In this document: piece by piece, positions 8,896-24,922 of the stretch
Layout: each line of letters begins with the position of its first letter
Numbering within the stretch: position 1 is the first letter of the stretch
Assembly (NCBI RefSeq): GCF_001238275.1
Contig: NZ_LGTB01000038.1
Coordinates: forward strand, 1-64,000
DNA from: Bradyrhizobium viridifuturi
Lineage (GTDB): Bacteria > Pseudomonadota > Alphaproteobacteria > Rhizobiales > Xanthobacteraceae
DNA length: 64,000 bases
Reading direction: 5' to 3'
Notes under the pieces: model-generated
The model's input: the letters and a program-made list of their open reading frames with translations, nothing else
The model's database searches: none
Told to the model about the DNA's origin: nothing
Position numbers and translations under genes: made by a program

Positions 8896-8966
8896 ATATT
8901 CTCCCATAAACCTCACGGCCCGGGAAATTGCGTCGTCAATGCACACCATCAGTCCGGAATCGCGAC

Positions 8967-10634
8967 ATGACACGGAGCGATCTATCCGATCTCCGGAAGC
9001 CCGACCGACGCGCTCCCGCAGTCGGTGCCGGCAAAATCTGTCTTAAGCACCTCGATGCATGGTCGCAAACATCTCCTCGAACGCGTAGAAGATGGATCCG
9101 GACGTGCGTGAGAGGTGCCGATCCTACGTCGACACTTTTTGAGACCCCTCGCCAGTCGTGGAGGCGCCAGATTACCGATCGCAGACTGCCCTTTCCCCAC
9201 TCGATCGTCGGATGGTTCGTCCTTTGCTGGGGCCTTTTCCTGATCGCGGCCGTCGTGGTCGGGGCGATGTTGATCGCCCTTTACAAAGAGACGAACAGCC
9301 AGCGCATAGATCGTGCGGAGACCGTCCTGGTGAGAGCCTGCGACGCGGTCGCGAGGGAGGCCGCCGGATCGGCCGTGACTGTTTCAGCGGATGATCCGAG
9401 CCGCAGCGCGTCTCACGCGCTCGAAGCATTTGCGGGAGTGGAAGGTGGGATATGGCGCGCCGGCGTTGGGTCGATAGCCTATGCGTTTCCTTCCTACGAA
9501 GGCACTGGCGTCAAGACGGATCTCCCGCAAGCGGAGGAGCGGACGATCCGTCAAGTTGCCGAGAGTACGGTTGCCGCCGATCGGCCGGTCGCCTGGAAGC
9601 GAGATGCGCCCTCGCAGGTTTTGATGCTGCAGGGCTGTCCCATCCCGGGCAAGCCCGATCTTGCTGCGTGGGCCATGACCCGGGTCGTTACGGTCGGTGG
9701 TCGGCCATTCCTGTTGGCGACGACGGGCCTTGCTCTGCTGCTGGTCGTATTGCTGGGCTCAGCCGCTCTGCTCGCCCGCGTGTTGTGGAGGTGGTCGCTG
9801 CGCCTCCGTTCGATCGAGCGGGCACTTGCGAGCGGATCGGCGGATCTGCCAGTCCTAGCGCTCACGGGCCAGCGCGACCTCGATCGCATCGTCGGAGCCA
9901 TCAATGGGGCCGGTATCGCGGCCGCGGAGGCGCGGCAACGCTCCGAAGAACTCCGGCAAAGGGTCGCCGAAGGCGAGCGCCTCGCCGCGCTCGGTCGGGT
10001 AGCTGCAGGGGTCGCCCATGAGATACGGAACCCAATGGCTGCCATGCGGTTAAAGGCTGAGAACGCGCTGGCCGAAAATGCCGATCCGTTGCGCGCGAAG
10101 GATGCCTTGCGCGTGGTGGTCGACCAGGTCGCCCGGATGGAGCAGTTGATGCAGAATCTCTTGCGCTCTGTCCAACGTTCCGCCGTTCGTCGCGAGGCGA
10201 TCTCCGATGTCAAAGGTCTGCTGGAGGAGCACGCCGAACTGTTCTCCGAGCAGGCTGGTCGCAGGCCGATTTCGGTGGAAGCCCCTGATGCGCTCGATCC
10301 TCCGGCCCATCTAGACCCATCGCAGATCGGGCGTGCATTGGACAATCTGATCCTGAATGCCATCCAGAACTCCCCGGAGGGCGCGCCGATCAGGGTCTTT
10401 GCCAAGTCAACGGTGACCGGTTTGGAGATCGCGGTAGCCGATCACGGCAACGGCGTCGCCGCAGAAATCCGTGATCACCTGTTCGAACCCTTCACTACGG
10501 GGCGTGCCGACGGTACAGGCCTCGGCCTTGCGATCGTCCGCGAAATAGCGGAGGCCCATGGGGGCCGCGCGACGGTTGAGCATCGAGGGGACGGGACCAC
10601 GTTTCTCATCGAACTGCCGGGCGGAGCGTCCTGA
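8967..10634 (+). CDS. Membrane sensor histidine kinase, NtrB-type partner
   Basis: The protein has a transmembrane segment (about residues 80-106), a periplasmic sensor region of about 130 residues and a second helix (LLATTGLALLLVVLLGSAALL). A HisKA domain with phospho-acceptor His near residue 351 (AHEIRNPMAA) follows. The HATPase region has an N-box (LDNLILNAIQNSPEG), G1 (DHGNGV), F-box (LFEPFTTG) and G2 (GTGLGLAI). The start is uncertain: ATG 8967 is used here, but GTG 9108 gives a shorter tail before the first helix. Its stop overlaps the start of the sigma-54 regulator gene by one base, so the two are translationally coupled. Signal unknown. Confidence 0.9.
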   Translation: MTRSDLSDLRKPDRRAPAVGAGKICLKHLDAWSQTSPRTRRRWIRTCVRGADPTSTLFETPRQSWRRQITDRRLPFPHSIVGWFVLCWGLFLIAAVVVGAMLIALYKETNSQRIDRAETVLVRACDAVAREAAGSAVTVSADDPSRSASHALEAFAGVEGGIWRAGVGSIAYAFPSYEGTGVKTDLPQAEERTIRQVAESTVAADRPVAWKRDAPSQVLMLQGCPIPGKPDLAAWAMTRVVTVGGRPFLLATTGLALLLVVLLGSAALLARVLWRWSLRLRSIERALASGSADLPVLALTGQRDLDRIVGAINGAGIAAAEARQRSEELRQRVAEGERLAALGRVAAGVAHEIRNPMAAMRLKAENALAENADPLRAKDALRVVVDQVARMEQLMQNLLRSVQRSAVRREAISDVKGLLEEHAELFSEQAGRRPISVEAPDALDPPAHLDPSQIGRALDNLILNAIQNSPEGAPIRVFAKSTVTGLEIAVADHGNGVAAEIRDHLFEPFTTGRADGTGLGLAIVREIAEAHGGRATVEHRGDGTTFLIELPGGAS

Positions 10635-11983
10635 TGACCCGAGTGTTGATCGTCGACGACGACGAGGCGCTGCGCGGGGCCCTCTGCGAAACCATCAGAG
10701 ACCTCGGTTACGAGGCGAGCGCCGCGTCCAACGGGCGCGAGGCGATCAGTCTTGCGGCCACGTGCCGACCTGACGCGATACTGCTCGATTTGCGAATGCC
10801 CGACATGAATGGCCTCGATGTCCTCCGCCACTATCGGGCGGAGAGCGCCAAGCCGCCGGTCGCGATCATGACCGCCTATGCGACCGCAGCAAACACGATC
10901 GAAGCGATGCGTCTCGGCGCTTTCGATCACATGACCAAGCCGGTCGGCCGCGACGATCTTGCCTCCCTGTTGCGCCGTATGACCCGAGCTCGTTCTTCCA
11001 TCCGAGAGCCGGCGCGCGTTGTCGAAGCCGACTCCTCGGATGGCGATCTCATCGGATCCAGCGCTGGCATGCGGACGGTGCAGAAGACCATTGGTCTCGT
11101 TGCGGACAACGATACAACGGTGCTGATCACGGGCGAGACCGGGACCGGCAAGGAGGTGGTGGCCAGAACCATCCACCGCGCGGGGGCGCGCTCGACCGGA
11201 CCGTTCGTCCCGCTCAATTGCGCAGCGATACCGGCCGACCTTCTGGAAAGCGAATTGTTCGGACACGTCAAGGGCGCGTTCACCGGCGCCGTCAGCGAGC
11301 GCAAGGGAGCGTTCCGGGAGGCAAGCGGAGGCACGCTCTTTCTTGACGAGATAGGCGACATGGATCTGGCGATGCAGGCGAAAATCCTTCGTGCGATCCA
11401 GGAGCGCGTCGTGACGCCGGTCGGAGGACGGTCGCAGCCCGTCGATGTGCGCATCGTCGCCGCCACGCATCGCGACCTTGCGCAATGGGTCACTCAGGGC
11501 AGGTTTCGAGAAGACCTGTTCTATCGGCTGAACGTGGTCCCGATCGTGCTTCAGCCGCTTCGCGCGCGGACGGAGGACATCCTTCCGCTGGCCAAGCACT
11601 TCCTGCGCCTCGCGAGCGCGCGGTCACTTGTGCTGTCCCCCCAAGCAGAAAAGCGGTTGATCGACCATCCGTGGCCGGGCAACGTCCGCGAATTGCGCAA
11701 TGCCATGGAGCGCGCCGCCATCTTCAGCCATAGCGACGTCCTCGACGTCGATGATTTCGGTTTCCTCGATACGCCCATGCCCATTGCCCACGGTGATGCA
11801 ACGGTTGGAACGACGGAGTTGCCTGCCGCTCTCGAAGAGCTCGAGCGAAAGATGATCTCCAACGCGCTTGCGCAAAGTCAGGGTAACCGGGCCGAGGCGG
11901 CTCGGAAGCTGGGTATTCATCGCCAACTGCTTCATTCGAAGATGACCAAGTACGGACTTGATCAGGTGGGCAACGGTTGCTGA
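10634..11983 (+). CDS. NtrC-family sigma-54-dependent response regulator
   Basis: This 449-residue activator has three domains. The receiver has acidic residues at 8-10, phospho-acceptor Asp52 (LLDLRMPDMNG), Thr80 and Lys102. The AAA+ domain has Walker A GETGTGKE (168-174), the sigma-54 contact loop GAFTGA (214-219) and Walker B GGTLFLDEIGD. A C-terminal Fis-type helix-turn-helix (about 410-445) contains NRAEAARKLGIHRQLLHSKM. It should activate RNA polymerase-σ54 after phosphorylation by the kinase encoded just upstream. The only sigma-54 promoter I find is at 12941-12955, ahead of the seven-gene operon, which is therefore its likely target. Confidence 0.95.
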   Translation: MTRVLIVDDDEALRGALCETIRDLGYEASAASNGREAISLAATCRPDAILLDLRMPDMNGLDVLRHYRAESAKPPVAIMTAYATAANTIEAMRLGAFDHMTKPVGRDDLASLLRRMTRARSSIREPARVVEADSSDGDLIGSSAGMRTVQKTIGLVADNDTTVLITGETGTGKEVVARTIHRAGARSTGPFVPLNCAAIPADLLESELFGHVKGAFTGAVSERKGAFREASGGTLFLDEIGDMDLAMQAKILRAIQERVVTPVGGRSQPVDVRIVAATHRDLAQWVTQGRFREDLFYRLNVVPIVLQPLRARTEDILPLAKHFLRLASARSLVLSPQAEKRLIDHPWPGNVRELRNAMERAAIFSHSDVLDVDDFGFLDTPMPIAHGDATVGTTELPAALEELERKMISNALAQSQGNRAEAARKLGIHRQLLHSKMTKYGLDQVGNGC

Positions 11984-12129
11984 GGGGGAAACTAGCATCG
12001 TCGAAATACCTGGTTTCTAGCTGGGCCGCTTGCTCATTAAGCCAGTAATTTTGATACGACAGACGCAGTTGCCTATCGCGCGAGTTTGTGCGGCAGCGCA
12101 GCTGGCGTTGGGCGAATAGTGGGCCGGCA

Positions 12130-12395
12130 ATCATTCGGCCATTGTCGGACAGCGCGTCGCGACCAAAAAAGAACATTGCACTTCCTGGCGAAGCGAGCAC
12201 GACCGACGCCGCGTTTGCTGTGGCCAATCCCCATTTGCGCGCGACCACGCCTAACGCGAGCGCGCAAATGCCCATGCAGACGTATCCGACCAGATAGACG
12301 GCTGAGAGAACTCTGCCGCGGCTGTCTGCCGGCGCGATGGCGTTGAGCAACGTCAGCGCACGCAGAAATAGGAACGCATAGCCGTCGTAAGTTCT
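12130..12395 (-). pseudogene. MFS transporter, C-terminal fragment
   Basis: In this frame about 70 residues read FLFLRALTLLNAIAPADSRG and then LSAVYLVGYVCMGICALALG, which is the typical loop plus transmembrane helix of a major facilitator protein. Everything before this loop is missing and the reading loses membrane character after about 12200. It abuts, in a different frame, the cut end of the CHASE3 fragment. Both are on the minus strand, which suggests a deletion joined two unrelated genes. Confidence 0.6.
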
Positions 12396-12736
12396 TCCAG
12401 CCGGGACAGCCGTGCGATCTGCGTGGCGTTGTCCTCCGCCAACCTTCTGATTTCAGCCACGGTATCCATTATGGACACGCTACCTTCCGCGAACGGGCCT
12501 AGATAGCTTTCGTCTCCGGTGATGATGAACCCGCGTTGCCCGGTCTCCGCGTCCTGCAGCTTCATCTGCAACTGATCGATAGCCGTGATGATGCGAAACG
12601 TGTGCTCCACGTCGGCGCGATAGCTTTTCAGAAGCTGGTTGTACCCGAACGAGATCGCGCCGCTCATGACGATCGCGACCACGACCGGGAGGGAAGCGAT
12701 CATTCGTCGTCGTGTCAGCAGCTGCGTAGCGCGCAT
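12353..12736 (-). pseudogene. CHASE3-domain sensor protein, N-terminal fragment
   Basis: The 127-residue reading has an N-terminal transmembrane helix (MIASLPVVVAIVMSGAISFG) and then a CHASE3 extracellular sensor region with its hallmark DAETGQRGFIITGDESYLGP. Full proteins continue through a second membrane helix into a histidine kinase, cyclase or GAF module. Here the reading ends inside CHASE3, after about residue 118, where MFS sequence begins. It is either a remnant or a short decoy; remnant is more likely. Confidence 0.75.
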
Positions 12737-12940
12737 CGTTGGATCCTGGCCGTGGGCGAACCTTCAACCAGGAGCATCGCCAATTGGCTTCTCCCGGCGC
12801 AAATGCGGTTCCTCAACGGAAATCCGTCCCAGCGCATACCCCGCGACCGGCGTCGTGATTGCGGACGGGGTGTCTTCAAAGCCGACGATCCGGAACTGAC
12901 GAAGTGAGAATTTGCGAAGTGATTTCAAGGCCTCGGCCGT

Positions 12941-12955
12941 TGGCACGCGGCTTGC
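12941..12955 (+). promoter_or_regulatory. Sigma-54 (RpoN) promoter
   Basis: TGGCACGCGGCTTGC matches the sigma-54 consensus TGGCAC-N5-TTGC with exact GG-N10-GC spacing. Transcription would start near 12967, followed by a ribosome site AAGGAG at 12983 and the ATG at 12994. Upstream, CGAAGTGA occurs twice (12900-12907 and 12915-12922) and TTGCGAAG also twice (12912 and 12952). These are candidates for activator or accessory sites. Confidence 0.8.
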
Positions 12956-12993
12956 GAAGCTAGTACGCCATCATCGATAGCAAGGAGCGTCTC

Positions 12994-13629
12994 ATGCATT
13001 GGATCGATCCCGATCATCTGCCGGAAGTCGTCGGAACCGTCGATCTATTCCTCGTGAACAAACACGGCGAAGCCGACGGCTTTCTCATGACCGACGGCCG
13101 CGAGGTTCATGTCCCCCCACATCTGTCGCCACGCCTGCTGCGCGACGTCCGCCCAGGCAGCAAGGTGCGCGTCCGTGGCGTGAGCCCGCGCGCCGTCGAA
13201 ATGATCGCGGCCGTCGCTATCGACACGCCCGAGGGCCGCCTGCTGGACGAGGGTCCGGATCATCGGCCCGACGAGGACGAATTCGAGAAAGCCAAGCACG
13301 GACCCATGAACGTCCAGGGTGTCGTTCGCCAGCCAATCCACGGACCGAAGGGTGAGACCAGAGGCGCGGTGCTGGAGGATGGTCGTATCATCCGTCTCCC
13401 GCCGCACGAAGCCGAGCGGTTTTCCGACCTGTTCTTCGCGGGTCGCAAGATCGCGGCGAAAGGCGAAGGAGCGACCACATCTTTCGGAACTGTGGTTGAA
13501 GCCAGGGAGATCGGTCCTTCCTCGGACGAACTCAAGGCCGTCGGCGGCCCGAAGCAGCCCAAGCACGGCCCGGGCCACAAGAAGCCCAAGCATCACGAAA
13601 AGCATCATCGTCCCGGCCATCACGCTTGA
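12994..13629 (+). CDS. Duplicated-domain protein with a His/Lys-rich tail
   Basis: This 211-residue protein has no signal peptide. It contains two copies of a β-rich unit. The first (about 12-63) has GFLMTDGREVHVPPH and ends with GSKVRVRGV. The second (about 108-160) has GAVLEDGRIIRLPPH and ends with GRKIAAKGEG. The pattern resembles small OB-like barrels, but I cannot assign a family. The last 25 residues are rich in His, Lys, Pro and Gly (KPKHHEKHHRPGHH), a likely metal-binding tail. AAGGAG precedes the ATG. It is the first gene behind the sigma-54 promoter, 9 bases before the metallophosphoesterase gene. Confidence 0.8.
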   Translation: MHWIDPDHLPEVVGTVDLFLVNKHGEADGFLMTDGREVHVPPHLSPRLLRDVRPGSKVRVRGVSPRAVEMIAAVAIDTPEGRLLDEGPDHRPDEDEFEKAKHGPMNVQGVVRQPIHGPKGETRGAVLEDGRIIRLPPHEAERFSDLFFAGRKIAAKGEGATTSFGTVVEAREIGPSSDELKAVGGPKQPKHGPGHKKPKHHEKHHRPGHHA

Positions 13630-13638
13630 GCGCTGAAA

Positions 13639-14745
13639 ATGGAAAACATCTCGAACGCCCGACCGTTACGTTTCGTGCAGATCGGAGATCTGCACGCCAC
13701 GGATCATGGCCTGCAGAACCATCGGGATTTTCTGCGGATCGTCGACGAGCTCAACGACAATGTCGGCGGCAAGATCGACTTCGTCTATCTGCCCGGTGAC
13801 AATGCCGAGGACGGGACCAGCGAACAGTTCGCGCTGGTGCGCGACGGCCTCAAGAGGCTCCGGCTCCCGTGGCGCGCGATCCCCGGCGATCACGACTTCA
13901 AGCCGAGGTCGCTGACCAGATTCTACGACGGCCTGTACGTCCCGAAGCTGCCTTTCGCCGAGGAGATCAAGGGCTGCGTCTGTCTGTTCCTCGACGTGGT
14001 CTCGCAAGGAACCGGTGGCCCCGATTTCAGGCTGGGTCAGCAACAGTTCACGTGGCTCAAGTTTCGGCTCGCTGCCGCTAAACAAGAGGGCAAGACTTGC
14101 GTCGTCTTGATGCACGCCTATCCCGCCGATCTCGGCGACGAGGCGGAAGAACTGACGCGGGTGCTCGACGAGAGCAATACGCTGCTCGTCGCCATGGGCC
14201 ATACCCACTACAACGAGATTTCGCACGATGGCCGGACCGTCTATGCGGCGACGAGGTCGACGGGACAGATCGAAGAAGGTCCAGTCGGCTTGGCGTTCAT
14301 GGCCGTTGATGGCAACGCGGTAAGCTGGCGGTTCAAGCCGCTCGAGTCGCCGTGGCCGTTCGTGATGATCACGTCGCCGGCGGACCGCCGCCTTTCGATC
14401 CACGGCGATGGCCAACCGACCCCGGCCGAGGTGAGAGCTACGGTCTGGGGCGCGGCTACGACAGCGCATGCGGATCTCCGTATCGACGACGGTCCCTGGC
14501 TTCGGATGTCGAGCATCGAAGGCGGCCAATTCAACGCGCCGCTCCGTTCGGACACGCCATGTCGCCTCGAAGTGAGAGCAACTGACCAAAACGGCTCACA
14601 GGAACGCGACGTTATCGAGTGGGACCCAGACGGCAATCGTGATCGCGCGTCGAGCGGCAGCGATACGAACTCGATTGGTGCATGGCCAGAACGCCATTTA
14701 TTTGGAACGCAGCTTGGTCCCAATCGAAACGGGCGGAAGTGGTGA
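13639..14745 (+). CDS. Metallophosphoesterase (calcineurin-like) with C-terminal β-domain
   Basis: A 368-residue protein with the five metallophosphoesterase motifs: GDLHATDH (residues 16-23), GDNAEDG (53-59), GDHD (83-86), a His in VLMHAYPAD and GHTHYNE. These residues bind two metal ions in phosphodiesterases and nucleotidases of the family. No signal peptide is seen. After about residue 235 comes a separate β-rich domain of roughly 100 residues, then a polar tail. It is second in the sigma-54 operon. The substrate is not predictable. Confidence 0.88.
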   Translation: MENISNARPLRFVQIGDLHATDHGLQNHRDFLRIVDELNDNVGGKIDFVYLPGDNAEDGTSEQFALVRDGLKRLRLPWRAIPGDHDFKPRSLTRFYDGLYVPKLPFAEEIKGCVCLFLDVVSQGTGGPDFRLGQQQFTWLKFRLAAAKQEGKTCVVLMHAYPADLGDEAEELTRVLDESNTLLVAMGHTHYNEISHDGRTVYAATRSTGQIEEGPVGLAFMAVDGNAVSWRFKPLESPWPFVMITSPADRRLSIHGDGQPTPAEVRATVWGAATTAHADLRIDDGPWLRMSSIEGGQFNAPLRSDTPCRLEVRATDQNGSQERDVIEWDPDGNRDRASSGSDTNSIGAWPERHLFGTQLGPNRNGRKW

Positions 14746-14781
14746 TCGCCCACAACCATTTTCTCGGTGGAATTTGACGTC

Positions 14782-15237
14782 ATGCAGAACATTAGTCCGG
14801 CCTGGCTTTACCCGATCATTCTCGTTTGCGGCGCGCTGCAGGCGTGGGGACCGCCGATGAACAACGCGTTGCGCAATTCGATGGAGAACCCCTGGCTGTC
14901 GAGCATCATCTCGTTCCTGCCGGTCGTCGCCTTTCTCTCCGTCTTGTGGATGTGCCAACCGCATCCGTTTCCGACACGTGAAAGCATCGCTGCGATGCCA
15001 TGGTGGGCCCCGCTCGGAGGGCTGATCGGAGCGTTCGCAGTCGTGGCGGGCCTCATATTCGTCGGCCAGGTCGGCGCCGGCACGTTCGGCGGCCTGACCA
15101 TCACGGCGAACATCCTGATGTCGCTGATCATCGACAAGTACGGATTGTTCGGAATGACGGTCCACGAGCTCAGCTTGGGCCGCATTGCTGGCGCCATCCT
15201 CATGGTGGCCGGCATCGCCCTCATCTCGAGGTTCTGA
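14782..15237 (+). CDS. YdcZ/DUF606-like or DMT-type membrane protein
   Basis: This 151-residue protein has about five hydrophobic segments, starting with WLYPIILVCGALQAWGPPMN and including GGLIGAFAVVAGLIFVGQVG and IAGAILMVAGIALI. That is the layout of the DUF606/YdcZ branch of the drug/metabolite transporter group, often a half-size unit. The ATG at 14782 is preferred over 14767 because the first helix then begins normally. It lies in the sigma-54 operon, 12 bases before the MFS gene. Confidence 0.8.
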   Translation: MQNISPAWLYPIILVCGALQAWGPPMNNALRNSMENPWLSSIISFLPVVAFLSVLWMCQPHPFPTRESIAAMPWWAPLGGLIGAFAVVAGLIFVGQVGAGTFGGLTITANILMSLIIDKYGLFGMTVHELSLGRIAGAILMVAGIALISRF

Positions 15238-15249
15238 GGGGAGGTCCGA

Positions 15250-16509
15250 ATGACGCTCGCGCAATCCCAACAACGAGCCCTCGCACCACTGCTCGCCTTG
15301 AACTTCTTCATGGCTGACATGCAGGCGGGCATCGGCCCCTTCCTCGGCGTCTTCCTCCTCGCCCACGGCTGGCAGAGCGGATGGATAGGAACCGTGATGA
15401 CCGCGGGCGGCGTCGCCGGCATGCTGATGACCACGCCGGCAGGAGCGTTGATCGACTCGACGCGCAGCAAGCGCCTGTACGTGATCATTCCGGGCGTCTG
15501 CACCGTCATCGCATCCGGCATCGTGCTGCTGTCGCAGGAATTCTGGCTGGTGGCGGCATCCCAGGTGGCGACCGCGATCGCCGGCGCCGCGATCGGCCCT
15601 GCGGTAGCCGGCATCACGCTCGGTATCGTGCGCCAAGCCGGCTTCAACCGTCAGAACGGAGAGAACCAGGCCTACAATCACGCGGGCAACATGGTCGGCG
15701 CGGCATTGTCCGGCCTGCTCGGATGGCTATACGGTTTCACGGCCGTGTTCTGGCTGTCGGCGGCGTTCGGCGTGCTCTCGATCATATCCGTGCTGATGAT
15801 CCCCGGCGATGCCATCGACGATGACGCCGCCCGTGGTCTCGAGCAGAAGGACAGCCAGCAAGGCCACGTCAGTGGGCTGCAGGTCCTCGTCGAATCTAAG
15901 CCGCTGCTGATCCTCTCGGCCGCTCTGCTGTTCTTCCACCTCGGCAACGCCGCGATGCTGCCTCTCTACGGACTTGCGGTGGTCGCCGACAAGCATGCGG
16001 ATCCCGCAAGCTTCGTCGCCATGACGATCGTGATCGCCCAGGGGGTGATGATCCTGACATCATTGGCCGCGATGCGGATGGCAGAGAAGGAAGGCTACTG
16101 GTTGGTGTTGCTGGTCTCCTTCGTCGCCCTCCCGATCCGGGGCGTCATCGCGGCTTGGCTGCTGAGCAAATGGGGCGTCTACCCGGTGCAGATCCTCGAC
16201 GGCATCGGAGCCGGTCTGCAGAGCGTCGCCGTTCCCGGACTGGTGGCTCGGATTCTCGACGGCACCGGCCGCGTCAATGCGGGCCAGGGCGCGGTTATGA
16301 CCGTCCAGGGCATCGGCGCCTCGAGCAGCCCGGCGATCGGCGGGTGGATCGCGCAGGAGATGGGCTACGGATCGATGTTCCTCATTCTGGGCTCATTCGC
16401 CGCCGTGTCGGTCGGGCTCTGGCTGGCTTTCGGCTCGCTGCTCAAGCCGGCCTGTGCCGGGAGGCCGGGCCGCACGACACCCGAACTTGCGGTCGCAGGG
16501 GCAGGTTGA
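15250..16509 (+). CDS. MFS transporter
   Basis: A 419-residue major facilitator with about 12 membrane segments. The A-motif region between helices 2 and 3 reads GMLMTTPAGALIDSTRSKR. The cytoplasmic loop after the first helices contains NGENQAYNHAGN, a pattern I associate with a subset of MFS exporters. GGAGG lies seven bases before the ATG. Its stop codon overlaps the start of the ArsB-like gene (TGATG), so the two transporters are translationally coupled. Cargo unknown. Confidence 0.92.
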   Translation: MTLAQSQQRALAPLLALNFFMADMQAGIGPFLGVFLLAHGWQSGWIGTVMTAGGVAGMLMTTPAGALIDSTRSKRLYVIIPGVCTVIASGIVLLSQEFWLVAASQVATAIAGAAIGPAVAGITLGIVRQAGFNRQNGENQAYNHAGNMVGAALSGLLGWLYGFTAVFWLSAAFGVLSIISVLMIPGDAIDDDAARGLEQKDSQQGHVSGLQVLVESKPLLILSAALLFFHLGNAAMLPLYGLAVVADKHADPASFVAMTIVIAQGVMILTSLAAMRMAEKEGYWLVLLVSFVALPIRGVIAAWLLSKWGVYPVQILDGIGAGLQSVAVPGLVARILDGTGRVNAGQGAVMTVQGIGASSSPAIGGWIAQEMGYGSMFLILGSFAAVSVGLWLAFGSLLKPACAGRPGRTTPELAVAGAG

Positions 16510-17768
16510 TGTTCAACGCAGCCACCGCGACATGGGGCATCGCAGGACTCGCCACTCTCGGCGTGGTCGCTCGGCCGTGGAATTTGCCCGAATTCATCTG
16601 GGCAGTGACGGGTGCGGTGCTGCTCGTCGCCTTCGACCTGCTGCCGTGGCGCGAAGCCTTGACAGCAGCCGGCAAGGGCGTCGACGTCTATTTCTTCCTT
16701 GTTGGGATGATGCTGCTCGCCGAGGTCGCACGCAAGGAGGGTCTGTTCGACTGGCTTGCCGTGCAGGCCGTGCGGCAATCCCGCCATTCGGCATCCCGGC
16801 TGTTCGCGATCGTGTATGCGGTCGGTACGGTGGTCACGATCTTCCTGTCGAACGACGCCACGGCGGTGGTCCTGACGCCCGCGGTCTACGCGGCGACCCG
16901 TACGGCCAAAGTCGAGCCGTTGCCATATCTATTTGTCTGCGCTTTCATCGCCAATGCGGCCAGCTTCGTGCTGCCAATCTCAAATCCGGCCAATCTCGTC
17001 GTCTTCGGCGAGCGGATGCCGACACTTATCGAATGGCTGCGCTACTTCGGCCTGCCGTCGGTGGTCGCGATTGCTGCGACGTTTCTGCTGCTCCGCTTCA
17101 GCCAGCGTGACAGTCTCCGAGGCAGCGTCGAAAGCGAGGCGAAGAGTGTTGTGCTGACGCGCACTGCTGCGATCGTCGCGCTCGGCATCGGCGCGACGGC
17201 GGTCGCGCTTTTGGTCGCATCGGCACTCGGCCGCGATCTCGGACTGCCGACGTTCGTTTGTGGCGCGATCGTCACCGCGATCGCTCTGGTGCTCGGGCGG
17301 AAATCTCCATTGCCGGTTCTTCGGGATGTCGCCTGGTCCGTTCTGCCGCTGGTCGCCGGGCTCTTCATTCTCGTCGAAGGGCTGAACCATACCGGCGTGC
17401 TTCCGGCCCTTGCCGACATGTTGAAGCAGGCGGCCGCCGATGCGCCGAAGGCGACGGCGTGGGGCAGTGGCATCATCTCGGCGTTTGCCTCCAATCTTAT
17501 CAACAATCTCCCGATGGGCCTAATCGCGGCCACTACGTCTCACGCGGCTCAGGCCTCGCATGAAATAACGGCGGCCATCCTTATCGGCGTGGACCTCGGA
17601 CCAAATCTCTCCGTGACCGGTTCGCTTGCCACGATCCTCTGGCTCATCGCGCTCCGCCGCGAAGGAGAGAACGTCAGCGCCGTGCGTTTTCTGAAGCTCG
17701 GCCTCCTGGTGATGCCGCCGAGTCTTGTGCTTTCGCTTTTTTCGCTTTCGCTGGTGGCGCCTCGATGA
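16509..17768 (+). CDS. ArsB/SLC13-like permease (ion transporter superfamily)
   Basis: This 419-residue membrane protein has the paired signature of arsenite- and citrate-type permeases: FLSNDATAVVLTPAV in the first half and FASNLINNLPMGLI in the second. ISNPANLVVF, typical of ArsB-like proteins, lies between them. The ATG at 16509 overlaps the MFS stop; longer upstream readings run through the MFS gene and are false. No ArsR, ArsC or ArsH gene is near, so arsenic specificity is not supported. It may export another metalloid or an organic anion. Confidence 0.88.
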   Translation: MFNAATATWGIAGLATLGVVARPWNLPEFIWAVTGAVLLVAFDLLPWREALTAAGKGVDVYFFLVGMMLLAEVARKEGLFDWLAVQAVRQSRHSASRLFAIVYAVGTVVTIFLSNDATAVVLTPAVYAATRTAKVEPLPYLFVCAFIANAASFVLPISNPANLVVFGERMPTLIEWLRYFGLPSVVAIAATFLLLRFSQRDSLRGSVESEAKSVVLTRTAAIVALGIGATAVALLVASALGRDLGLPTFVCGAIVTAIALVLGRKSPLPVLRDVAWSVLPLVAGLFILVEGLNHTGVLPALADMLKQAAADAPKATAWGSGIISAFASNLINNLPMGLIAATTSHAAQASHEITAAILIGVDLGPNLSVTGSLATILWLIALRREGENVSAVRFLKLGLLVMPPSLVLSLFSLSLVAPR

Positions 17769-17854
17769 CGCTCCAGCAACACCCGTTCTCACTCGTCGGA
17801 GCGAGGACTAGCAACCAGAGCCGATCGGCCGATCGGTGCAATTTGGAGGAAAAC

Positions 17855-18303
17855 ATGACCAGTGAATCAAACCGTGGCGATCGGACCGGCCTGTCTCGGC
17901 GTACTCTTGCTCTGGCCACCGGCGTCGCCGCGTTAGGCGTCGCGCTCGGCATGCGCTCGACCGCGTTCGCGCAGGGCAAAGCCGACGGCAAGGGCGAAGG
18001 CAAGGCGGATGCAAAGATCGAAGGCAAGGCTGACGCCAAGGGCGAAGGAAAGGCCGAAGGTAAAGGTGAAGGCAAAGGCGAGGGCAAGGGAGAAGGCAAA
18101 GGCGAGGGAAAGGGAGAAGGTAAAGGTGAAGGCAAGTTCGGCGGCAAGGAGGTGCGCTGGGACGGCAAGGCTGGCCGCATAAGGTCGACGTCGCGAGCGA
18201 CGGCACGACTGCCGTCGACGTGCGCTGCGCCGCCGATGAATCCATGCGGAGCTGCGCCGACATCACGCGCGACATCATTGATCGGATCAAGGCACCGAAG
18301 TAG
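17855..18303 (+). pseudogene. Tat-type exported Lys-Gly-Glu-Gly repeat protein, frameshifted near 18169
   Basis: The start at 17855 follows GGAGGAAAAC. Residues 1-40 look like a twin-arginine signal (LSRRTLALATG, then a hydrophobic run ending AFAQ). Residues 41-98 are GKGEGK-type repeats, alternately basic and acidic. After DGKAG the frame breaks: one extra G in the GG at 18169-18170 would give DGKGWPHKVDVASDG and a tail with two Cys (VRCAADESMRSC), ending at TAG 18301-18303. That tail reads as real coding sequence. So the true protein is about 149 residues, exported, with a short Cys-containing C-terminal domain. Function unknown; sixth gene of the sigma-54 operon. Confidence 0.75.
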
Positions 18304-18318
18304 CTTGAGGAGCGCGAC

Positions 18319-19038
18319 ATGGCTTATGGCGACCTCGTCGCGCGCGTCGATTTCGATATGACCCGCGCGTCTTCCTTCTCTTACAATTGTCACGCTTGCA
18401 AGCGCTGCTGCAGGAACAAGGCCATCCGGGTCAATCCATATGAGGTCCTGCGGCTGGCGCGCCGCTTGGGACTCTCGACGACCGAGTTCATTGAGCGCAA
18501 GACGGAAGCCGGTGGCACCGTCTTGCGCTCGGCGGAAGACGGCAACTGTGTCTTCCTGAACGAACAAGGCTGTTCCGTGCATCCGGATCGTCCGCTCGCG
18601 TGCAGGATATATCCGCTCGCCCGCTGGGTTTCGGCCGAAGGCGAGGAGTCGTTCGGGCACCTGGCGCCGCACCCGCAGACGGAGGGCGTGTACGGCAACG
18701 CAGGCACGGTCCAGGACTACCTCGATCAGCAGGTAGTCGAACCATACTTCCGAAACTCGGATCGCTACGGCGTACTTTACGACAAGATGCTCGCAATTCT
18801 GGAAAAGGCGGATCCGCACGAACTCGATCGCCGGCAGGACCGCCGAAAGGAGATCGATGAACTTCCGTCTGGATCCGTCGCCTCGGCCTTCATGGACATC
18901 GATTCGATGGTCCGGACTTCCTTGCAGGATGATCCGGACAAGATTGTCGAGCGCCATATCAAAGAGGTCGAGAAGTGCCTTATCTCGATAGACGGAGAAA
19001 TCATGCCGGCCGAATCAATCCGCGATTCAGAGGTGTGA
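18319..19038 (+). CDS. YkgJ-family cysteine cluster protein (putative metal-chelating)
   Basis: A 239-residue cytoplasmic protein. Its N-terminal half has the CxxCxxCC cluster CHACKRCC (about residues 19-26), then CVFLNEQGCSVHPDRPLACRIYP, which matches the zinc/iron-chelating YkgJ (CxxCxxCC) family. The C-terminal half is helical and charged. GAGGAGCG precedes the ATG, 15 bases after the repeat-protein gene, so it probably closes the sigma-54 operon. YkgJ proteins have no settled biochemical role. In this operon it may load metal, mature a partner or sense metal. Confidence 0.88.
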   Translation: MAYGDLVARVDFDMTRASSFSYNCHACKRCCRNKAIRVNPYEVLRLARRLGLSTTEFIERKTEAGGTVLRSAEDGNCVFLNEQGCSVHPDRPLACRIYPLARWVSAEGEESFGHLAPHPQTEGVYGNAGTVQDYLDQQVVEPYFRNSDRYGVLYDKMLAILEKADPHELDRRQDRRKEIDELPSGSVASAFMDIDSMVRTSLQDDPDKIVERHIKEVEKCLISIDGEIMPAESIRDSEV

Positions 19039-19967
19039 GGGCTTGCAGAACTTGAGTGTCCGTACGGAGGAACGAGGAGGAGACACGCATGGAAAGCAGC
19101 GCGCAAGCGGTGCACGCGCGAGGATTCTTTGCTTTGGTGGATATTCCCAGTAAAGCAACTGGGTTAAAGCGGCGAATCTTGTCATGTAAGCGCCGGGCGG
19201 CTGTGCATTGGGGAGTTGCGCTACCGCAGTAACGATCTGAGCTGGCGCGAAAGGCATATTTAATAGCACGCTGTGAGGCACGCCGAGAGACGGTCACTGA
19301 TCTGCTGGGTCTCCAGTCATGTAAACAACAGGGATTCGGGGTCGAGTTCTCGGGCGCGCCTGGCCACGTCCCAGCCGTTTGGGTCCGCCCTTGTGCAAAA
19401 GTATACACAGCAGGGAGACTTTAAGTTTTTCGCAGCGCGGCCCTAACTGGCCACCGAAAATTGTGTCGCAATGGCCGCTCGCTCCCAGACCGCACAGGTC
19501 TGACGTGATAGCCGCTGGCGGCGCACTATTTGCTAAAATTCTCGCCACCATCTGCCGACTTCGTCCGCTCGATGTTCGTACTGCTATCGGACCAACCTCA
19601 AGACTAAAATCTGTATAACGGGTGGCCTATTGAACGAAATGCCTTGCCAAGAGTTGGTTCCACCGATCACTCGGGGAAGCAAATTAGAGCTGCGATTTTC
19701 GTCAGGTCTTCACGCAACCTTTGTCGAACATTGTTTCGATCAACCGAAGGCCACGCCTTTGAATTCGGCAAACCAACCCATCAAGCTCGCCGGCTGCGTC
19801 GACGCGGCCGAGGTCGCGAATTTCTGCACGTGGCCCTTCGCGGGCATTGCGTTCGTCCGGCTCTTATGTCCGATCTCGGAGCCTAACCGGACTTCAACTG
19901 TCTTGCCGCGAGGGCTACCCACAGCCGATGGCAATCGCCATGATGGTTCGCTTCATAGCGCGTCTCC
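19039..19967. other. Gene-poor stretch of about 930 bases
   Basis: No gene is convincing. Minus-strand frames at 19027-19281 and a plus-strand frame at 19630-20112 exist, but the latter runs into the DUF892 gene antisense and neither shows a motif. I see no clear terminator for the operon ending at 19038. It may be decayed island DNA. Confidence 0.4.
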
Positions 19968-20456
19968 TCAAGCTGCTTCGGCATTGATGGCGCTGACCGC
20001 GAGCTTGGTGAGGGCTTCATCCGTCTTCTTTTCCTCGGCCAAGGTCTGGTCGATCAGCTTGACGGCGTCCTTCATGCTGAGCTTGGCCGCCCAGGCCTTT
20101 AGGGTGCCGTAGCGGGCGATCTCGTAATGCTCGACCGCCTGAGCCGCGGAGACCAGACCCGGATCGAGTGCCGGCGTGTCGGCGTACTCCTCCATAATCT
20201 CCTTGCCTTCGTCGAGGATGCCCTCGATGGCATCGCACTTCTTGCCGCGTGCGGGCTTACCCATCAGATCAAAGATTTGTTCGAGCCGATCGATCTGTCC
20301 TTCGGTCTCGTCACGATGCTTCTCGAACGCGGCGCGCAGCTGGTCGGAGCCAGCGGCCTTGGCCATGCGCGGGAGCGCCTTGAGGATTTGCTTCTCGGCG
20401 TAATAAATGTCCTTGAGGGTATCGAGGAAGAGGGCGCTGAGGTCTTTCTCCGGCAT
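19968..20456 (-). CDS. DUF892 (YciF-type) ferritin-like protein
   Basis: A 162-residue all-helical protein of the YciE/YciF (DUF892) family, a ferritin-like four-helix bundle induced by stress in many bacteria. LFLDTLKDIYYAEKQILKALPRMAKA opens the first helix and carries the usual Glu ligand. EKHRDETEGQIDRLEQIF and VEHYEIARYGTLKAW supply later Glu/His positions. I start at ATG 20456 (MPEKDL); upstream residues are not family-like. It is divergent from the CsbD gene, and both have σEcfG-like promoters in the gap. Confidence 0.92.
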   Translation of the reverse strand: MPEKDLSALFLDTLKDIYYAEKQILKALPRMAKAAGSDQLRAAFEKHRDETEGQIDRLEQIFDLMGKPARGKKCDAIEGILDEGKEIMEEYADTPALDPGLVSAAQAVEHYEIARYGTLKAWAAKLSMKDAVKLIDQTLAEEKKTDEALTKLAVSAINAEAA

Positions 20457-20493
20457 GGGTCTGCTCCGTGTCTGCGGGTTGATATGCACCCAC

Positions 20494-20518
20494 AACCGGC
20501 GCTCCGGGACCTCGTTCC
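20494..20518 (-). promoter_or_regulatory. σEcfG-like promoter for the DUF892 gene
   Basis: Read on the minus strand it is GGAAC, 16 bases, then GGTT. The general stress promoter of Alphaproteobacteria is GGAAC-N16/17-CGTT, so it differs by one base. It lies 38 bases upstream of the start codon. Confidence 0.55.
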
Positions 20519-20576
20519 TATCTGCGCCGGCGCATCCGTCATCGGCGATCGCGTAGCTTTGCCGCAAGGCCGTCAA

Positions 20577-20601
20577 GGAACGAAGCCTCGGCGCAGCCGT
20601 T
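20577..20601 (+). promoter_or_regulatory. σEcfG-like promoter for the CsbD gene
   Basis: GGAAC, exactly 16 bases, then CGTT matches the alphaproteobacterial general-stress consensus. The ribosome site CGGAGG follows at 20621 and the ATG at 20633. Confidence 0.7.
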
Positions 20602-20632
20602 GGAGGGGCTCATCTTTCAACGGAGGACAGCG

Positions 20633-20836
20633 ATGGATTGGAATCGTGTCGAAGGCAACTGGAAGCAGATGAAGGGCAAGGTCAAGGAGCAGTGGGGCAA
20701 GCTCACCGATGACGATCTCGACGTGATCGCCGGCAAGCAGGACCAGCTCGAAGGCCGCCTCCAGCAGCGCTACGGCTATGCCAAGGACCAGGCCACCAAG
20801 GAAGTGAACGACTGGTACGGCCGCCAAAAATGGTGA
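20633..20836 (+). CDS. CsbD-family stress protein
   Basis: A 67-residue CsbD-like protein: MDWNRVEGNWKQMKGKVKEQ is the standard opening, then WGKLTDDDLDVIAGKQDQL and a final YGYAKDQATKEV. The family is small, acidic and induced by general stress in many bacteria; its molecular role is unknown. Start chosen at 20633 because MDWN is the family start and a strong ribosome site lies 7 bases upstream. A terminator follows at once. Confidence 0.95.
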   Translation: MDWNRVEGNWKQMKGKVKEQWGKLTDDDLDVIAGKQDQLEGRLQQRYGYAKDQATKEVNDWYGRQKW

Positions 20837-20851
20837 ATGAGGCTGTACTCG

Positions 20852-20878
20852 AAGGGCCCCGCCTTTGACGGGGCCCTT
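20852..20878 (+). terminator. Terminator after CsbD gene
   Basis: AAGGGCCCC, a 9-base loop and GGGGCCCTT make a perfect 9-bp stem followed by GCCTTG. Confidence 0.75.
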
Positions 20879-20953
20879 GCCTTGTGCGGTCTGGAACGGC
20901 GGCTGATGCCCAGCGTTGGAGGATGTTGTCATCGCCCCTAACCACGGATTTCC

Positions 20954-21531
20954 ATGCCGATCACGGTCCGGCCGACAACGCCCGATATTGCCATTGCGCG
21001 CACCATCTCGCGCAACACGACACCGCCAACCGAGCGCGCGGCCTCGATCCTGACATGGGTGGCTGACGAGCACGTCGTCTGTGCCGCGACATTGGGGTGG
21101 TGGTTATGGTGCCGCCGCAAATCCGAGCCTCAGCGCCTGGCGAGCGACCACCTTCTGGTCACGGCGTTGGCCGCGTCGCTTGTTCCGCATCTGCTGAAAT
21201 CGGCTTTCGACCAGGAGCGGCCCGACCGGCTCACCGTTGTTGGGCACCTTCATGGCATTCCGATATCGGGCAGGGCGAAGGATGCGTTTGCGTCCGGCCA
21301 CGCCATTCAGGTCGGCGCCATCGGCTCGGCCGCGAGCCGACTTCCCCCAGGCGAGCGTCGAATGGTCCGCGCGCTCGGGCCTGTCTGATATCGACCCGCG
21401 TGTTCTTGCTTGCGCACTGAGCGAGCGATGTCGTCGTGGGATCGGTGAATGGAGTGGTACTCGAGCGGCTGATCCGGTGCGTGACCGGCTACGGTAGCAA
21501 GCCGCCGATCGGCGATCCTGACCGTTGGTAG
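20954..21531 (+). pseudogene. PAP2-superfamily phosphatase, frameshift plus nonsense
   Basis: All three PAP2 signature regions can be found across two frames. KSAFDQERP fits KxxxxxxRP, SGRAKDAFASGHA fits the (P)SGH motif, and STRVFLLAH followed by SD fits the final SRxxxxxHxxxD. The first frame ends after RALGPV at 21388. Adding one G to the GGG at 21377-21379 restores ALGACLIST. The restored frame then meets TGA where Trp is expected (HWASD), so a second lesion is present. The remainder runs to TAG at 21529-21531. Start unclear; 20954 is the first ATG of the frame. Confidence 0.75.
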
Positions 21532-21589
21532 GCTAGCTCCTTGACCAAGGAGAGCCCCCAGAGCCCACCAGAGGGCCGAAAGCCCGCAA

Positions 21590-22809
21590 TCACGCTGCAG
21601 CCTTTCCCAGCTTGTGGGTTGACAGGACCTCAACGTGCCACGCCCAGCGTTGAAGCGCCTCGCGCATCTCGGTCGCATACCGGGCGCGGTTATACACCCC
21701 GGCAACACCGGCTCGGTGACCGCTGACATGGTTTAGGATCGCCTCCACGATGTGCGGCAAGACACCTAACTTGTCGGCCATCAGCGTGGAGGCGGATCTC
21801 CGAAGATCGTGAACTGTCCAATGGGGCAGCGGTTCGCCCGCGGCTTCCGCAATCCGGGCATCAAGCGCCGCCTTCGACTTTGACCAGCCCGAGAAACCGC
21901 GGTGCGGGTCGCCGCTGCGTCGGGGTCCGTCACCGAAGAGGAAGTCTCGGCCAACTCGGCGGGGCGGGAGCAGGGCCAAGGCAGCGGGAACCAAGGGTAG
22001 CAAATGCTCGCGGTGGTTCTTGGTCCGGGCGGCTGGCAGCGTCCAGAGTTCCAAACCGGTATCAAGTTCGGCCCATTGCAGACTGCCTACTTCATCACGG
22101 CGTTGGGCTGTAAGTAGCAACAGGCGGACGATGCGTCCGTAATCGTCGTCGCCACAGGCCCGCCAAATGGCTGAGAGCTCCGTTTCCGTGAGGACCCGCT
22201 CCCGGCTTCCCGGCTGCGCGGGCCGGTTTGTGCCGAGAACCGGGTTCGCAGCAATGTCGAGGCCCTCGCGTATTGCCCAGTTGAACATAGAGGACAGGGC
22301 TGTCCGGGCGCGGGCCGCTGAGACCGATCCATGAGCTGATGCGATTTCAGCGATCCGAGCCGAGATATGACGGCGGGTGATTTGGAAAACCGAGACCGGA
22401 TGCAGCGGTTTCCAGCTGGCCAACAAGTAGCGTTCGATTTCCGAGTAGGTCCGAGGCTTTAATCTCTGTTTGGCGTTGCGGAGATATTGATCCGCGATTA
22501 CCAAAAGCGTGTCGGCCGCCTGCAGGCGCGCCTTGGCTTTCTCGTCCGCGGGGTCTTTGCCGTTGGCGACCAGGCCCAAAAGCCGCTTGGCTTCCTTGCG
22601 TGCCAGTTCGGGTGTCCACGCGCGCCGTGAGGGCCTATCGTGACGAAGCGCTGCCGACCGAATACGCGGTACTTGAGGACGTAGGTCGCCTGATCGCGTT
22701 GGCGCCGAACGCCAAAGCCCCGCACCGCTTCGCGGTGCTCCCCATCCCAAATGGTCTCGCCCGGCTTGAGTGCTTGCACTGCTCGGATCGTTATACTCGA
22801 AACAGCCAT
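21590..22809 (-). pseudogene. Tyrosine recombinase / phage-type integrase, frameshifted near 22620
   Basis: The reading starts at 22809 with MAVSSITIRAVQALKPGETI, a DUF4102-like N-terminal arm domain. It breaks after RFVTIGPHGA: GCGCGTGG on the minus strand lacks one base compared with GCGCCGTGG. It then continues as WTPELARKEAKRLLG and a core-binding domain. Catalytic residues are visible: Arg in TAQRRDEVGSL, HDLRRSA (HxxR), a later His (HVSGHRAGVAG) and Tyr in VYNR. This is a P4/CP4-57-like island integrase. It lies 150 bases from the tRNA-His fragment, its likely attachment site. If the frameshift is real the island is fixed. Confidence 0.85.
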
Positions 22810-22820
22810 CTATCGCCTCG

Positions 22821-22842
22821 GTAGCTACCACGTAGCTACCAC
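22821..22842. repeat. Tandem 11-bp direct repeat before the integrase gene
   Basis: GTAGCTACCAC occurs twice with no gap, 12 bases upstream of the integrase start codon. Tandem repeats at this place are often arm-type or excisionase/repressor binding sites of the integrase promoter region. Confidence 0.55.
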
Positions 22843-22956
22843 CATAGCGCCAATTGCAGCGCAGGTAAGGCGGGGACCGGCGGGCTTATTAGCTGATAGT
22901 ATTACGATTTTCGTTCTTCCGGCGGCAATGGCGTGGTACCGGCGGAGCCCTCGCTG

Positions 22957-23004
22957 TGTCTGTGGAACAGGAGGTCGGTGGTTCGAGCCCACCCAACTGT
23001 ACCA
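22957..23004 (+). other. Island attachment scar: 3' half of a tRNA-His gene
   Basis: From 22960 the sequence folds as a tRNA 3' half. The anticodon loop CTGTGGA gives anticodon GTG (22962-22964), with stem strand ACAGG and variable loop AGGTC. The T-stem GGTGG/CCACC pairs perfectly around the loop TTCGAGC. The acceptor strand is CAACTGT, discriminator A is at 23001 and CCA is at 23002-23004. The 5' half is absent: the expected ACAGTTG is not found about 75 bases upstream, and the 5' anticodon stem pairs for only three bases. A73 instead of C73 agrees with the known alphaproteobacterial form of tRNA-His. Confidence 0.75.
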
Positions 23005-23175
23005 TCCACAAGATCTCCAGCGTGACATCGCCAACTCGGGCGTTCGCAAGATCGCTTGCCATCGCCTTGATCGCCGCCGGCGTGTCATCGCGTCCGCTTG
23101 CACTTCTTCGTCGCATCACCCAAACTCGGCGCAACGACGCCTTAACGACACCTTAGTGCCACCTTGGGGGGACGC

Positions 23176-23505
23176 ATGGGGACCGCCGGTTCAAGGAGTT
23201 TTTCGTTTGCGTTGATATCTGCCGTCGCCGTTGCGACGTTGTTGCTGCCGGCCCGAGGCGAGGCCTACACGCCCGACCAGCAGCAGGCCTGCACGCCGGA
23301 TGCGTTCCGGCTCTGCGGCCCCGAGATTCCCGACGTCGATCGCATCACGGCCTGCATGATCAGGAACAAGGCGCAGCTGTCGCCGGCCTGCCGCGTCTTC
23401 TTCCGCGGCGGCCCCGAGCCGCGTGAGGCGAGCGAGCGCGAGGACCGACGGCCCGCCAAGCGCAAGGTCCACAGGCCGCACAAGGCGAAGAAGTCCACCC
23501 ACTGA
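23176..23505 (+). CDS. Small exported Cys-containing hypothetical protein
   Basis: A 109-residue protein with a signal peptide (LISAVAVATLLLPARGEA) and a compact mature part carrying four Cys: QQACTPDAFRLCGP, TACMIRN and SPACRVFF. The tail is basic (RRPAKRKVHRPHKAKK). I recall similar short proteins in Bradyrhizobium, where they are unnamed. The ATG at 23176 follows a G-rich site; a TTG 12 bases earlier is possible. It is the first chromosomal gene after the island boundary. Confidence 0.75.
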   Translation: MGTAGSRSFSFALISAVAVATLLLPARGEAYTPDQQQACTPDAFRLCGPEIPDVDRITACMIRNKAQLSPACRVFFRGGPEPREASEREDRRPAKRKVHRPHKAKKSTH

Positions 23506-23742
23506 GGTCAGCGCACGGATCCGGTTCCCATCGCGCGCATGCAAACGTCGCCCGCTTGCTGCGCTGTCTTCACGCGAACTGACGTCACTTCGCGCGCGAA
23601 CGCGCCCGGATCGCCTGGCTTCGATTTCAAGGCTGCGATGCGCGACAGACTGACGCCTTGTGACGCTGTCACGCATCATCATCTCTGGGGCTTGTGTTGT
23701 TTGCAGGATCCGTTTCGCGACGGAACGGATGGAGTGAGATGC

Positions 23743-24066
23743 GTGAGCGAATACGACAAGCAAGAGATCGATCGGCACTTCGCCTGGTTCGAGGCCAAGC
23801 TTCCGGAGAAGCCGGCGCGCTTCGTGGCGTGGCTGCGCAAGCCGTCGTCGCGCTATGTGCGGATTCCGCTCGCGATCCTCCTGATCATCGGCGGCATCTT
23901 CAGCTTCCTGCCGGTGCTGGGGCTCTGGATGCTGCCGCTCGGACTCCTTTTGTTCGCGCAGGATGTTCCGTTGTTGCAGAAACCCACCGCGCAATTGCTC
24001 GGCTGGATCGAGCGCAAGTGGATCGCGCGTGAGCGCGCGAAAACTGCCGAAAAGCGTCAGCCGTGA
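23743..24066 (+). CDS. Small membrane protein, hypothetical
   Basis: A 107-residue protein starting at GTG 23743 after GGAG at 23731. The N-terminal half is charged and amphipathic (HFAWFEAKLPEKPARFVAWL). Two hydrophobic segments follow (IPLAILLIIGGIFSFLPVLG and MLPLGLLLFAQDVPLL), then a basic helix (WIERKWIARERAK). The layout resembles the widespread PGPGW-like or tryptophan-rich small membrane proteins, but I cannot assign a family. A hairpin follows the stop. Confidence 0.75.
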   Translation: MSEYDKQEIDRHFAWFEAKLPEKPARFVAWLRKPSSRYVRIPLAILLIIGGIFSFLPVLGLWMLPLGLLLFAQDVPLLQKPTAQLLGWIERKWIARERAKTAEKRQP

Positions 24067-24074
24067 GTCAAATC

Positions 24075-24089
24075 AAGCGCTTAGCGCTT
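24075..24089 (+). terminator. Short hairpin after the 107-aa membrane protein gene
   Basis: AAGCGC-TTA-GCGCTT, a 6-bp stem with a 3-base loop, followed by CCATTTTC, 9 bases after the stop codon. Confidence 0.5.
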
Positions 24090-24241
24090 CCATTTTCAGT
24101 TGTGTCATAAGTTGGGTGTGACTCAAAAAGCAGAATGCACCGGTAATCTTGGCCGCTTTGCGGATTGCAAGAAGTTTTTTCTTTCGCGAATCAGCGTGCT
24201 GATTCATTTTCGCCTCCTGGGGTCAATCTGGAGGCCAACGT

Positions 24242-24922
24242 ATGAACGTGATTGTTTTCGCTTCGCGTAAAGGGGGCTCGGGAAAAAGTACCCTGGCTGC
24301 TCACCTTGCCGCGCAAGTGCACAAGGCAACGAAGCCCTGTCTGCTGATCGATGCCGATCCGCAGGGCTCGCTGACGCTCTGGCACAAGCTGCGCGGCACC
24401 AACGAGCCGGCGATCAAGACGGCGGTGAACTCGGTCAGCGGAATCATCGCTCAAGCCAAGCGCGACGGCATCGAGTGGGTGTTCATCGACACGCCGCCGA
24501 ACCTGTCGGCCGTGGTCGACGACTCTATCAAGAACGCCACCATGGTGATCATTCCGGCGCGGCCAGGCGTGTTCGACGTCAACGCGGTGCAGGAAACCAT
24601 CCAGACCTGCCGCTCGATGCGCAAGCCCTATGCCGTCGTGATCAACGGCGCACCCGCGCAGCGTGACGGCGCCGAAAGCCGCATCGTCGCGATCGCGCGC
24701 GAGGCGCTGGCGAAATTCCGCGCACCGGTGTGGAGCGGCCAGATCACCAACCGCGCCGATCTTCTGATGGCGCTCGGCCAGGGTGAAGGCGCTCGCGAAT
24801 ATTACGCGGAGGGCCGCGCTGCCGCCGAGATCAACCGTCTGTGGGCTGCGATCGAACGCTCGATCAAGGCGATCCGCGGCACGGCGTCGGCGTCGGGCAC
24901 AATGCACAAGCAGGCGGCGTAA
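24242..24922 (+). CDS. ParA-family ATPase (orphan)
   Basis: A 226-residue P-loop ATPase with the deviant Walker A of ParA/MinD proteins, KGGSGKST (residues 10-17), DADPQGS (switch region) and Walker B-like VFIDTPP. It is shorter than chromosomal Soj/ParA and has no ParB gene next to it, so it is an orphan that may position some other cargo. A Gly/Arg-poor helical tail closes the protein. Terminator at 24951-24973. Confidence 0.92.
   Translation: MNVIVFASRKGGSGKSTLAAHLAAQVHKATKPCLLIDADPQGSLTLWHKLRGTNEPAIKTAVNSVSGIIAQAKRDGIEWVFIDTPPNLSAVVDDSIKNATMVIIPARPGVFDVNAVQETIQTCRSMRKPYAVVINGAPAQRDGAESRIVAIAREALAKFRAPVWSGQITNRADLLMALGQGEGAREYYAEGRAAAEINRLWAAIERSIKAIRGTASASGTMHKQAA

Follow-up and report, generated by a model that had tools for sequence, protein, structure and literature searches.

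Islands borne on tRNA genes have been described in Bradyrhizobium japonicum USDA6T and USDA110, where an intact tRNA gene stands at one end and a duplicated 3' portion of it at the other (PMC3927601). In the passages devoted to them, these islands have a lower GC content and carry an integrase, and the first four rows of Table 5 of that paper give 3' repeats of 18-50 bp (PMC3927601). Judged by the gene numbers printed in these rows, integrase and intact tRNA are far apart in each of the three USDA6T islands that list an integrase there (PMC3927601). The tRNA-His gene has been reported as a target as well. In Bradyrhizobium strain 186, a tripartite symICE at tRNA-Val is described as having its third part at tRNA-His (PMC9239051), and in Mesorhizobium, non-symbiotic ICEs are described at tRNA-His (PMC8627217). 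Use of tRNA-His as an attachment site is thus not new: one Bradyrhizobium strain (PMC9239051) and ICEs of Mesorhizobium (PMC8627217) provide published cases.

The DNA considered here, hereafter the window, is a stretch of 64,000 nucleotides from Bradyrhizobium viridifuturi. It corresponds to C38:1-64000 of the organism's own draft assembly (G000; 8.81 Mb, 152 contigs), the first base of contig C38 being window base 1. Within it, an orphan 3' half of a tRNA-His(GTG) gene stands next to a tyrosine integrase gene (Table 1). These 48 bases are almost certainly an attR, the chromosomal 3' half of the gene having been displaced when an integrative element recombined into tRNA-His. A half tRNA of this type is an ordinary, well-known kind of event, and one that recurs across Bradyrhizobium. 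Its confirmation here documents a half-gene scar that tRNA scanners overlook and places the right border of what is probably a large ICE with single-base precision.

Table 1. Features around the orphan half tRNA, in window coordinates
Feature	Position	Strand	Basis or remark
Right-hand part of the island, a patchwork of metabolic, transport and regulatory genes	1..22956	.	Low GC; pieces elsewhere in relatives
Tyrosine integrase gene	21590..22809	-	PF00589, E 2.2e-10; C-terminal and N-terminal parts in different frames
Twin 11-bp repeats between integrase and orphan, putative arm-binding sites	22821..22842	+	Twin pattern once in the window, once in C2:1-220000
Orphan 3' half of tRNA-His(GTG), 48 bp, the probable attR core	22957..23004	+	100% identity to intact tRNA-His G000:C2:200563-200639(-); same half and same flank in G004 and G010
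Chromosomal flank, following tRNA-His directly in a relative without the island	23005..24922	+	Collinear match in G003, G004, G010, G024 and G019
ParA-like gene within the chromosomal flank	24242-24922	.	Pfam AAA_31/CbiA

The orphan half tRNA and its intact counterpart

Read from the letters, the orphan starts three bases before the anticodon loop, at the end of the 5' anticodon-stem strand; the loop spans 22960-22966, with the anticodon GTG at 22962-22964. Next come the 3' anticodon-stem strand, a variable loop of five bases, a T-arm at 22977-22993 in which all pairs are formed (GGTGG/CCACC) and the 3' acceptor strand, followed by A73 at 23001 and CCA at 23002-23004. Inspection of the window bases to its left revealed no matching 5' half. 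A preliminary description of this DNA had noted the T-arm pairing, the GTG, A73, the CCA and the absent 5' half, all of which can be read directly in the letters. ARAGORN calls no tRNA in the 64-kb window and Rfam returns no match at E <= 1 over 22800-23160, so that standard scanners overlook the half gene. The same description had placed an integrase gene some 150 bases to the left. Its identity and position stand, with a PF00589 domain and 147 bases between the start codon at 22809 and the orphan, but in this assembly a frame break near 22.62 kb interrupts the gene. Two further domains, PF22022 (Phage_int_M) and PF13356 (Arm-DNA-bind_3), score slightly below their cut-offs.

The window opens at the first base of C38, which puts the intact gene beyond its left end, on another contig. 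The 48 bases recur at C2:200563-200610(-) with 100% identity (E 5.3e-18), as part of an intact 77-base tRNA-His(GTG) that ARAGORN recognizes. With the full 77-base gene as query, G000 yields one intact copy, one half copy and four partial matches at 76-79% identity, which are presumably other tRNAs; no further half copy appears at E <= 1. The earlier description had predicted an intact gene sharing about 45 bases, to be found beyond position 1 with the island on the left. The gene on C2 answers to this, sharing 48 bases and turning its downstream side toward low-GC DNA. A second tRNA-His with a different 3' half, which had been named as a sign against insertion, was sought with the 77-base query and was not found in G000.

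Because the gene on C2 is on the minus strand, its downstream side points toward C2 base 1. In 5-kb steps, the GC content of C2 is 0.56-0.65 over the 200 kb below the tRNA and 0.65-0.67 over the 20 kb above it (means of 0.60 versus 0.66). On C38 the step has the same direction and is less sharp, with a mean of 0.61 over 1-22000 versus 0.65 over 24001-84000; 2-kb bins with GC >= 0.63 make up 25 of 30 in the latter stretch versus 3 of 11 on the left. A tRNA at one border and a 48-bp direct repeat at the other are both present, on two separate contigs.

Relatives show the site both empty and filled. In G003 (locus L045), the homologue of the DNA from window 23005 on adjoins an intact tRNA-His directly on its downstream side, the DNA upstream of that gene corresponds to C2 above the tRNA, and both flanks are collinear. 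An island-free relative had been foreseen to look like this. In G024 and G019, homology to the flank beginning at 23005 becomes alignable some 0.2 kb beyond the intact tRNA-His, with a spacing close to that of the window; in G019, a near-copy of the core, 41 bases long, lies at 1.71 Mb as well. The same orphan followed by the same flank is found in G004 and G010, lying 110.7 and 75.6 kb downstream of the intact tRNA-His, respectively. Neither C38:1-21589 nor C2:1-200562 has a match at E <= 1e-5 in the fetched tRNA-His flanks of G003, G024 and G019. The presence of 21-23 kb content at the site in island-free relatives had been named as contrary evidence; DNA of the left 21.6 kb of the window is without a match in these three flanks. 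When window 2.9-20.6 kb was compared with 35 other genomes, the matches listed were pieces at other places; the best 8 candidates of each genome were scored, absence holds within that limit, and the three-site flank comparison is the firmer of the two. Taken together, the integration into tRNA-His that had been proposed from the letters is borne out by the 48-bp identity and by the unoccupied site of G003, and no contrary case was met.

For the tyrosine integrase family, the crossover chemistry and the displacement of half a gene are established, textbook mechanism. By analogy, the integrase at 21590-22809 would have recombined the attP of the element with the 3' half of tRNA-His, the crossover falling somewhere within the 48-bp core between the anticodon stem and the CCA. 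The copy of the core brought by the element would then complete the tRNA at attL, now on C2, and the old chromosomal 3' half would be displaced to the far end beside the integrase, where it would be left as the orphan at attR.

An integrase lineage and its tRNA

When the unbroken, single-frame integrase of G004 (90% identity to the window gene over the C-terminal part) was used as a protein query, matches at E <= 1e-60 were obtained in 31 of 195 congeneric genomes. The best match had at least 70% identity in 25 of the 31 and 43-47% in the other 6. Two or more exact 43-bp cores were counted, by eye among the matches listed, in 42 of the 195 genomes. They occur in 24 of the 25 genomes with a close integrase versus 18 of the 170 without (Fisher p 2e-18, for genomes that are related and so do not represent independent events). 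The exception, G135, has the integrase and one exact core among the matches listed. The eight rows at 43-47% identity lie, among the matches listed, on a contig other than that of the exact cores or, in G077, 3.8 Mb away.

The 27 named integrase loci comprise 26 from Bradyrhizobium, several of them from one genome, and one from a Methylocystaceae MAG. In 21 of these 27, a core with at most one mismatch stands 136-170 bp from the start of the integrase, on the opposite strand. Among the others, the record of L065 breaks off 22 bases upstream of the integrase; L084, L087 and L088 are partial integrase matches in which no core was seen; and L089 has a degenerate copy with 10 mismatches, counted without gaps. 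The integrase of L085, from the Methylocystaceae MAG, is 60% identical, has no such core and adjoins a tRNA-Arg at 1789-1861 (ARAGORN). A farther relative may thus use another tRNA. From the conserved spacing and the distribution of cores, it follows that the close lineage is tied to tRNA-His within Bradyrhizobium. No earlier report of this genus-wide pairing was found among the openly licensed papers searched.

The conserved pairing also bears on whether the half tRNA could be a chance or duplicated tRNA fragment that has nothing to do with the integrase. Fragments of tRNA genes can come from other duplications, and the integrase frame is broken here. Such an origin is nonetheless scarcely credible, given an identity over 48 bp at E 5e-18, a core and an integrase kept together at a constant spacing in most named loci, and a right flank that is the chromosomal flank of tRNA-His in G003. 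Displacement by an integrative element therefore remains the reading adopted here.

In genomes with the close integrase, core-to-core distances on single contigs span 16 to 233 kb among the matches listed. The target is shared more widely. Orphan halves occur 12 to 28 kb from an intact tRNA-His in G071 and G182 (12 kb), G025 (25 kb) and G077 (28 kb); as they have neither the repeats described below nor a close integrase, tRNA-His also serves unrelated elements. The 18 genomes with two or more cores and no close integrase likewise indicate that other elements use the same site. Past the orphan core in G202 (L098) and G071 (L104), the DNA is like that which follows an intact tRNA-His in other elements, which suggests that elements stand in tandem at tRNA-His in these two genomes. 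In Bradyrhizobium, tRNA-His is thus a recurrent insertion site with interchangeable cargo, a circumstance that aids the calling of islands in draft genomes.

The two ends and the cargo between them

The twin repeats of Table 1 have a second copy about 47 bp past the CCA of the intact tRNA on C2, and the pattern is confined to these two ends in 284 kb (the 64-kb window plus C2:1-220000, both strands). The motif is present at all ten orphan ends of this family that were examined (G000, G004, G010, G017, G031, G130, G142, G168, G189 and G202). On the side of the intact tRNA, a twin or near-twin was recognized by eye in seven of nine integrase genomes (G000, G031, G095, G130, G142, G189 and G202) and was not seen in G004 or G017. 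The exact motif is absent from all three unoccupied sites (G003, G019 and G024) and from all four orphans of other elements (G025, G071, G077 and G182). The repeats may be arm-type binding sites for the integrase. A 75.6-kb tRNA-His island at G010:C1:1537693-1613342 (L048, L049) has the end repeats on its orphan side and no integrase match, and the integrase of this element has apparently been lost.

C2 and C38 are separate draft contigs whose join is seen in no read or relative. That the two face each other across one element is what the flanks in G003, G004 and G010 would imply. If they do, the element measures at least 223,518 bp, with 200,562 on C2 and 22,956 on C38, and more may be unassembled. 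The gap between C2:1 and C38:1 was sought through the island of G031, which provided, in pieces of at least 400 bp, only a match of about 1 kb to a solute-binding protein at 66% beyond the backbone and the integrase end. A stretch of 237 bp with 87% identity is common to window ~8323-8559 and G000:C2:17193-17430.

Cargo in the window includes a solute-binding protein, a sensor kinase, a sigma-54-type response regulator, a phosphoesterase, an MFS transporter, an ArsB/CitMHS-type transporter and a DUF892 protein. On C2, the 143.8-155.3 kb region encodes TrbL, TrbE and a DUF3363/MobA-type relaxase, and the DNA below the tRNA also encodes a ParB-like protein, a serine recombinase and Ku. A relaxase had been considered at C2:163.4-165.5 kb and was rejected: that gene is ParB-like by HMM, and the relaxase is at C2:153.4-155.3 kb. 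Farther along, C2:6-82 kb (L033-L037) holds a heat-shock and repair set in which RpoH, ClpB, DnaK and UvrA score above the curated cut-off and Hsp20, GrpE, DnaJ and Lon below it, Lon being represented by only part of its sequence. This set may resemble stress-tolerance loci that are mobile in other bacteria.

In their order, the trb and Ku blocks agree with the tRNA-His interval of G031, which is 233 kb long. Their distances from the tRNA are 40 and 30 kb in G000 versus 52 and 28 kb in G031; the integrase end matches too, and most of the cargo differs. Relatives of TrbE, sought in 15 genomes, fall inside the tRNA-His interval in G031, in G017 and, by extension, probably in G000, and not in G004, G010 or G189; G168 and drafts such as G111 and G197 are left out of this tally. 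The trb-type conjugation genes on C2 make an ICE, or a former one, the most likely identity of the element, which may still be mobile at present; the membership of the conjugation genes depends on the proposed join of C2 and C38. A second trb-type cluster, 86% identical in DNA to that of C2, is found on contig C54 of the same genome (L090, record bases 5001-25000) and represents a second, related conjugative element.

The separation of the contigs invites the question of whether C2 and C38 are the ends of one element at all, since the element marked by the half tRNA could be one of several in tandem or nested array, or one part of a multipartite system, the segment left of the orphan then being just the last of them. 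The two contigs are unjoined, the resemblance past the orphan in G202 and G071 was noted by eye, G111 has at least four cores and two integrases, and a tripartite symICE with a tRNA-His part is described in one strain (PMC9239051). We nevertheless consider several elements unlikely. G000 has two exact cores among the matches listed and no more half copies at E <= 1, and twin repeats of the same type occur at both ends. C38, unlike C2, has one of the PF00589 matches in G000, and the single interval of G031 shows the same order of trb block, Ku block and integrase end. A single large element thus remains the preferred reading. A symbiosis island was considered and finds no support on C2 and C38, neither of which carries nifH (found on C10) or nodA (found on C5 and C89); on the contigs seen the element is thus not of that kind, although an unassembled stretch between C2 and C38 could differ. 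It is very improbable that the tRNA-His element belongs to a multipartite ICE whose nod and nif parts are those on C5, C10 and C89.

Several of these genes are broken in this draft. The integrase differs in length by one base from five relatives, and TrbE and three other trb-region genes on C2, named trbG, trbB and traG from gene order without HMM, are in more than one frame. Decay of the element was considered as the cause and dropped, as core genes are split too. In a control with the flanking core ORFs of G003, G004 and G010, 11 of 50 ORF comparisons, at 8 distinct places, were split between frames (e.g. at C2:205.88 kb and at C38:26.2, 28.7, 37.6, 54.5, 59.6 and 62.7 kb). A rough Fisher test of these 11 of 50 against 4 of 12 island ORFs, which are the rows of locus L118 only and were counted by eye, gives p 0.46. 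Since core genes in the draft are split likewise, assembly indels can explain the broken integrase and trb frames. The draft may carry many indel errors, and its pseudogenes should be doubted.

Comparison with described elements

An integrase at the orphan end is also what the three USDA6T islands with a listed integrase in the first rows of Table 5 show, judged by gene numbers (PMC3927601). In other respects the element differs from the islands of USDA6T and USDA110. The tRNA genes in the first rows of Table 5 are those for Arg, Glu and Lys, whereas the gene used here is tRNA-His, and the words trnH and tRNA-His are absent from the text of that paper (PMC3927601). The sizes given there are 2.9-100 kb (PMC3927601), compared to at least 223,518 bp for the element proposed here. 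The symICE of strain 186 is from the same genus, but its tRNA-His part is described as holding nif/fix genes (PMC9239051), whereas nifH and nodA here are on other contigs. By the description available, the Mesorhizobium ICEs are alike in adjoining tRNA-His without symbiosis genes, albeit in a different genus (PMC8627217).
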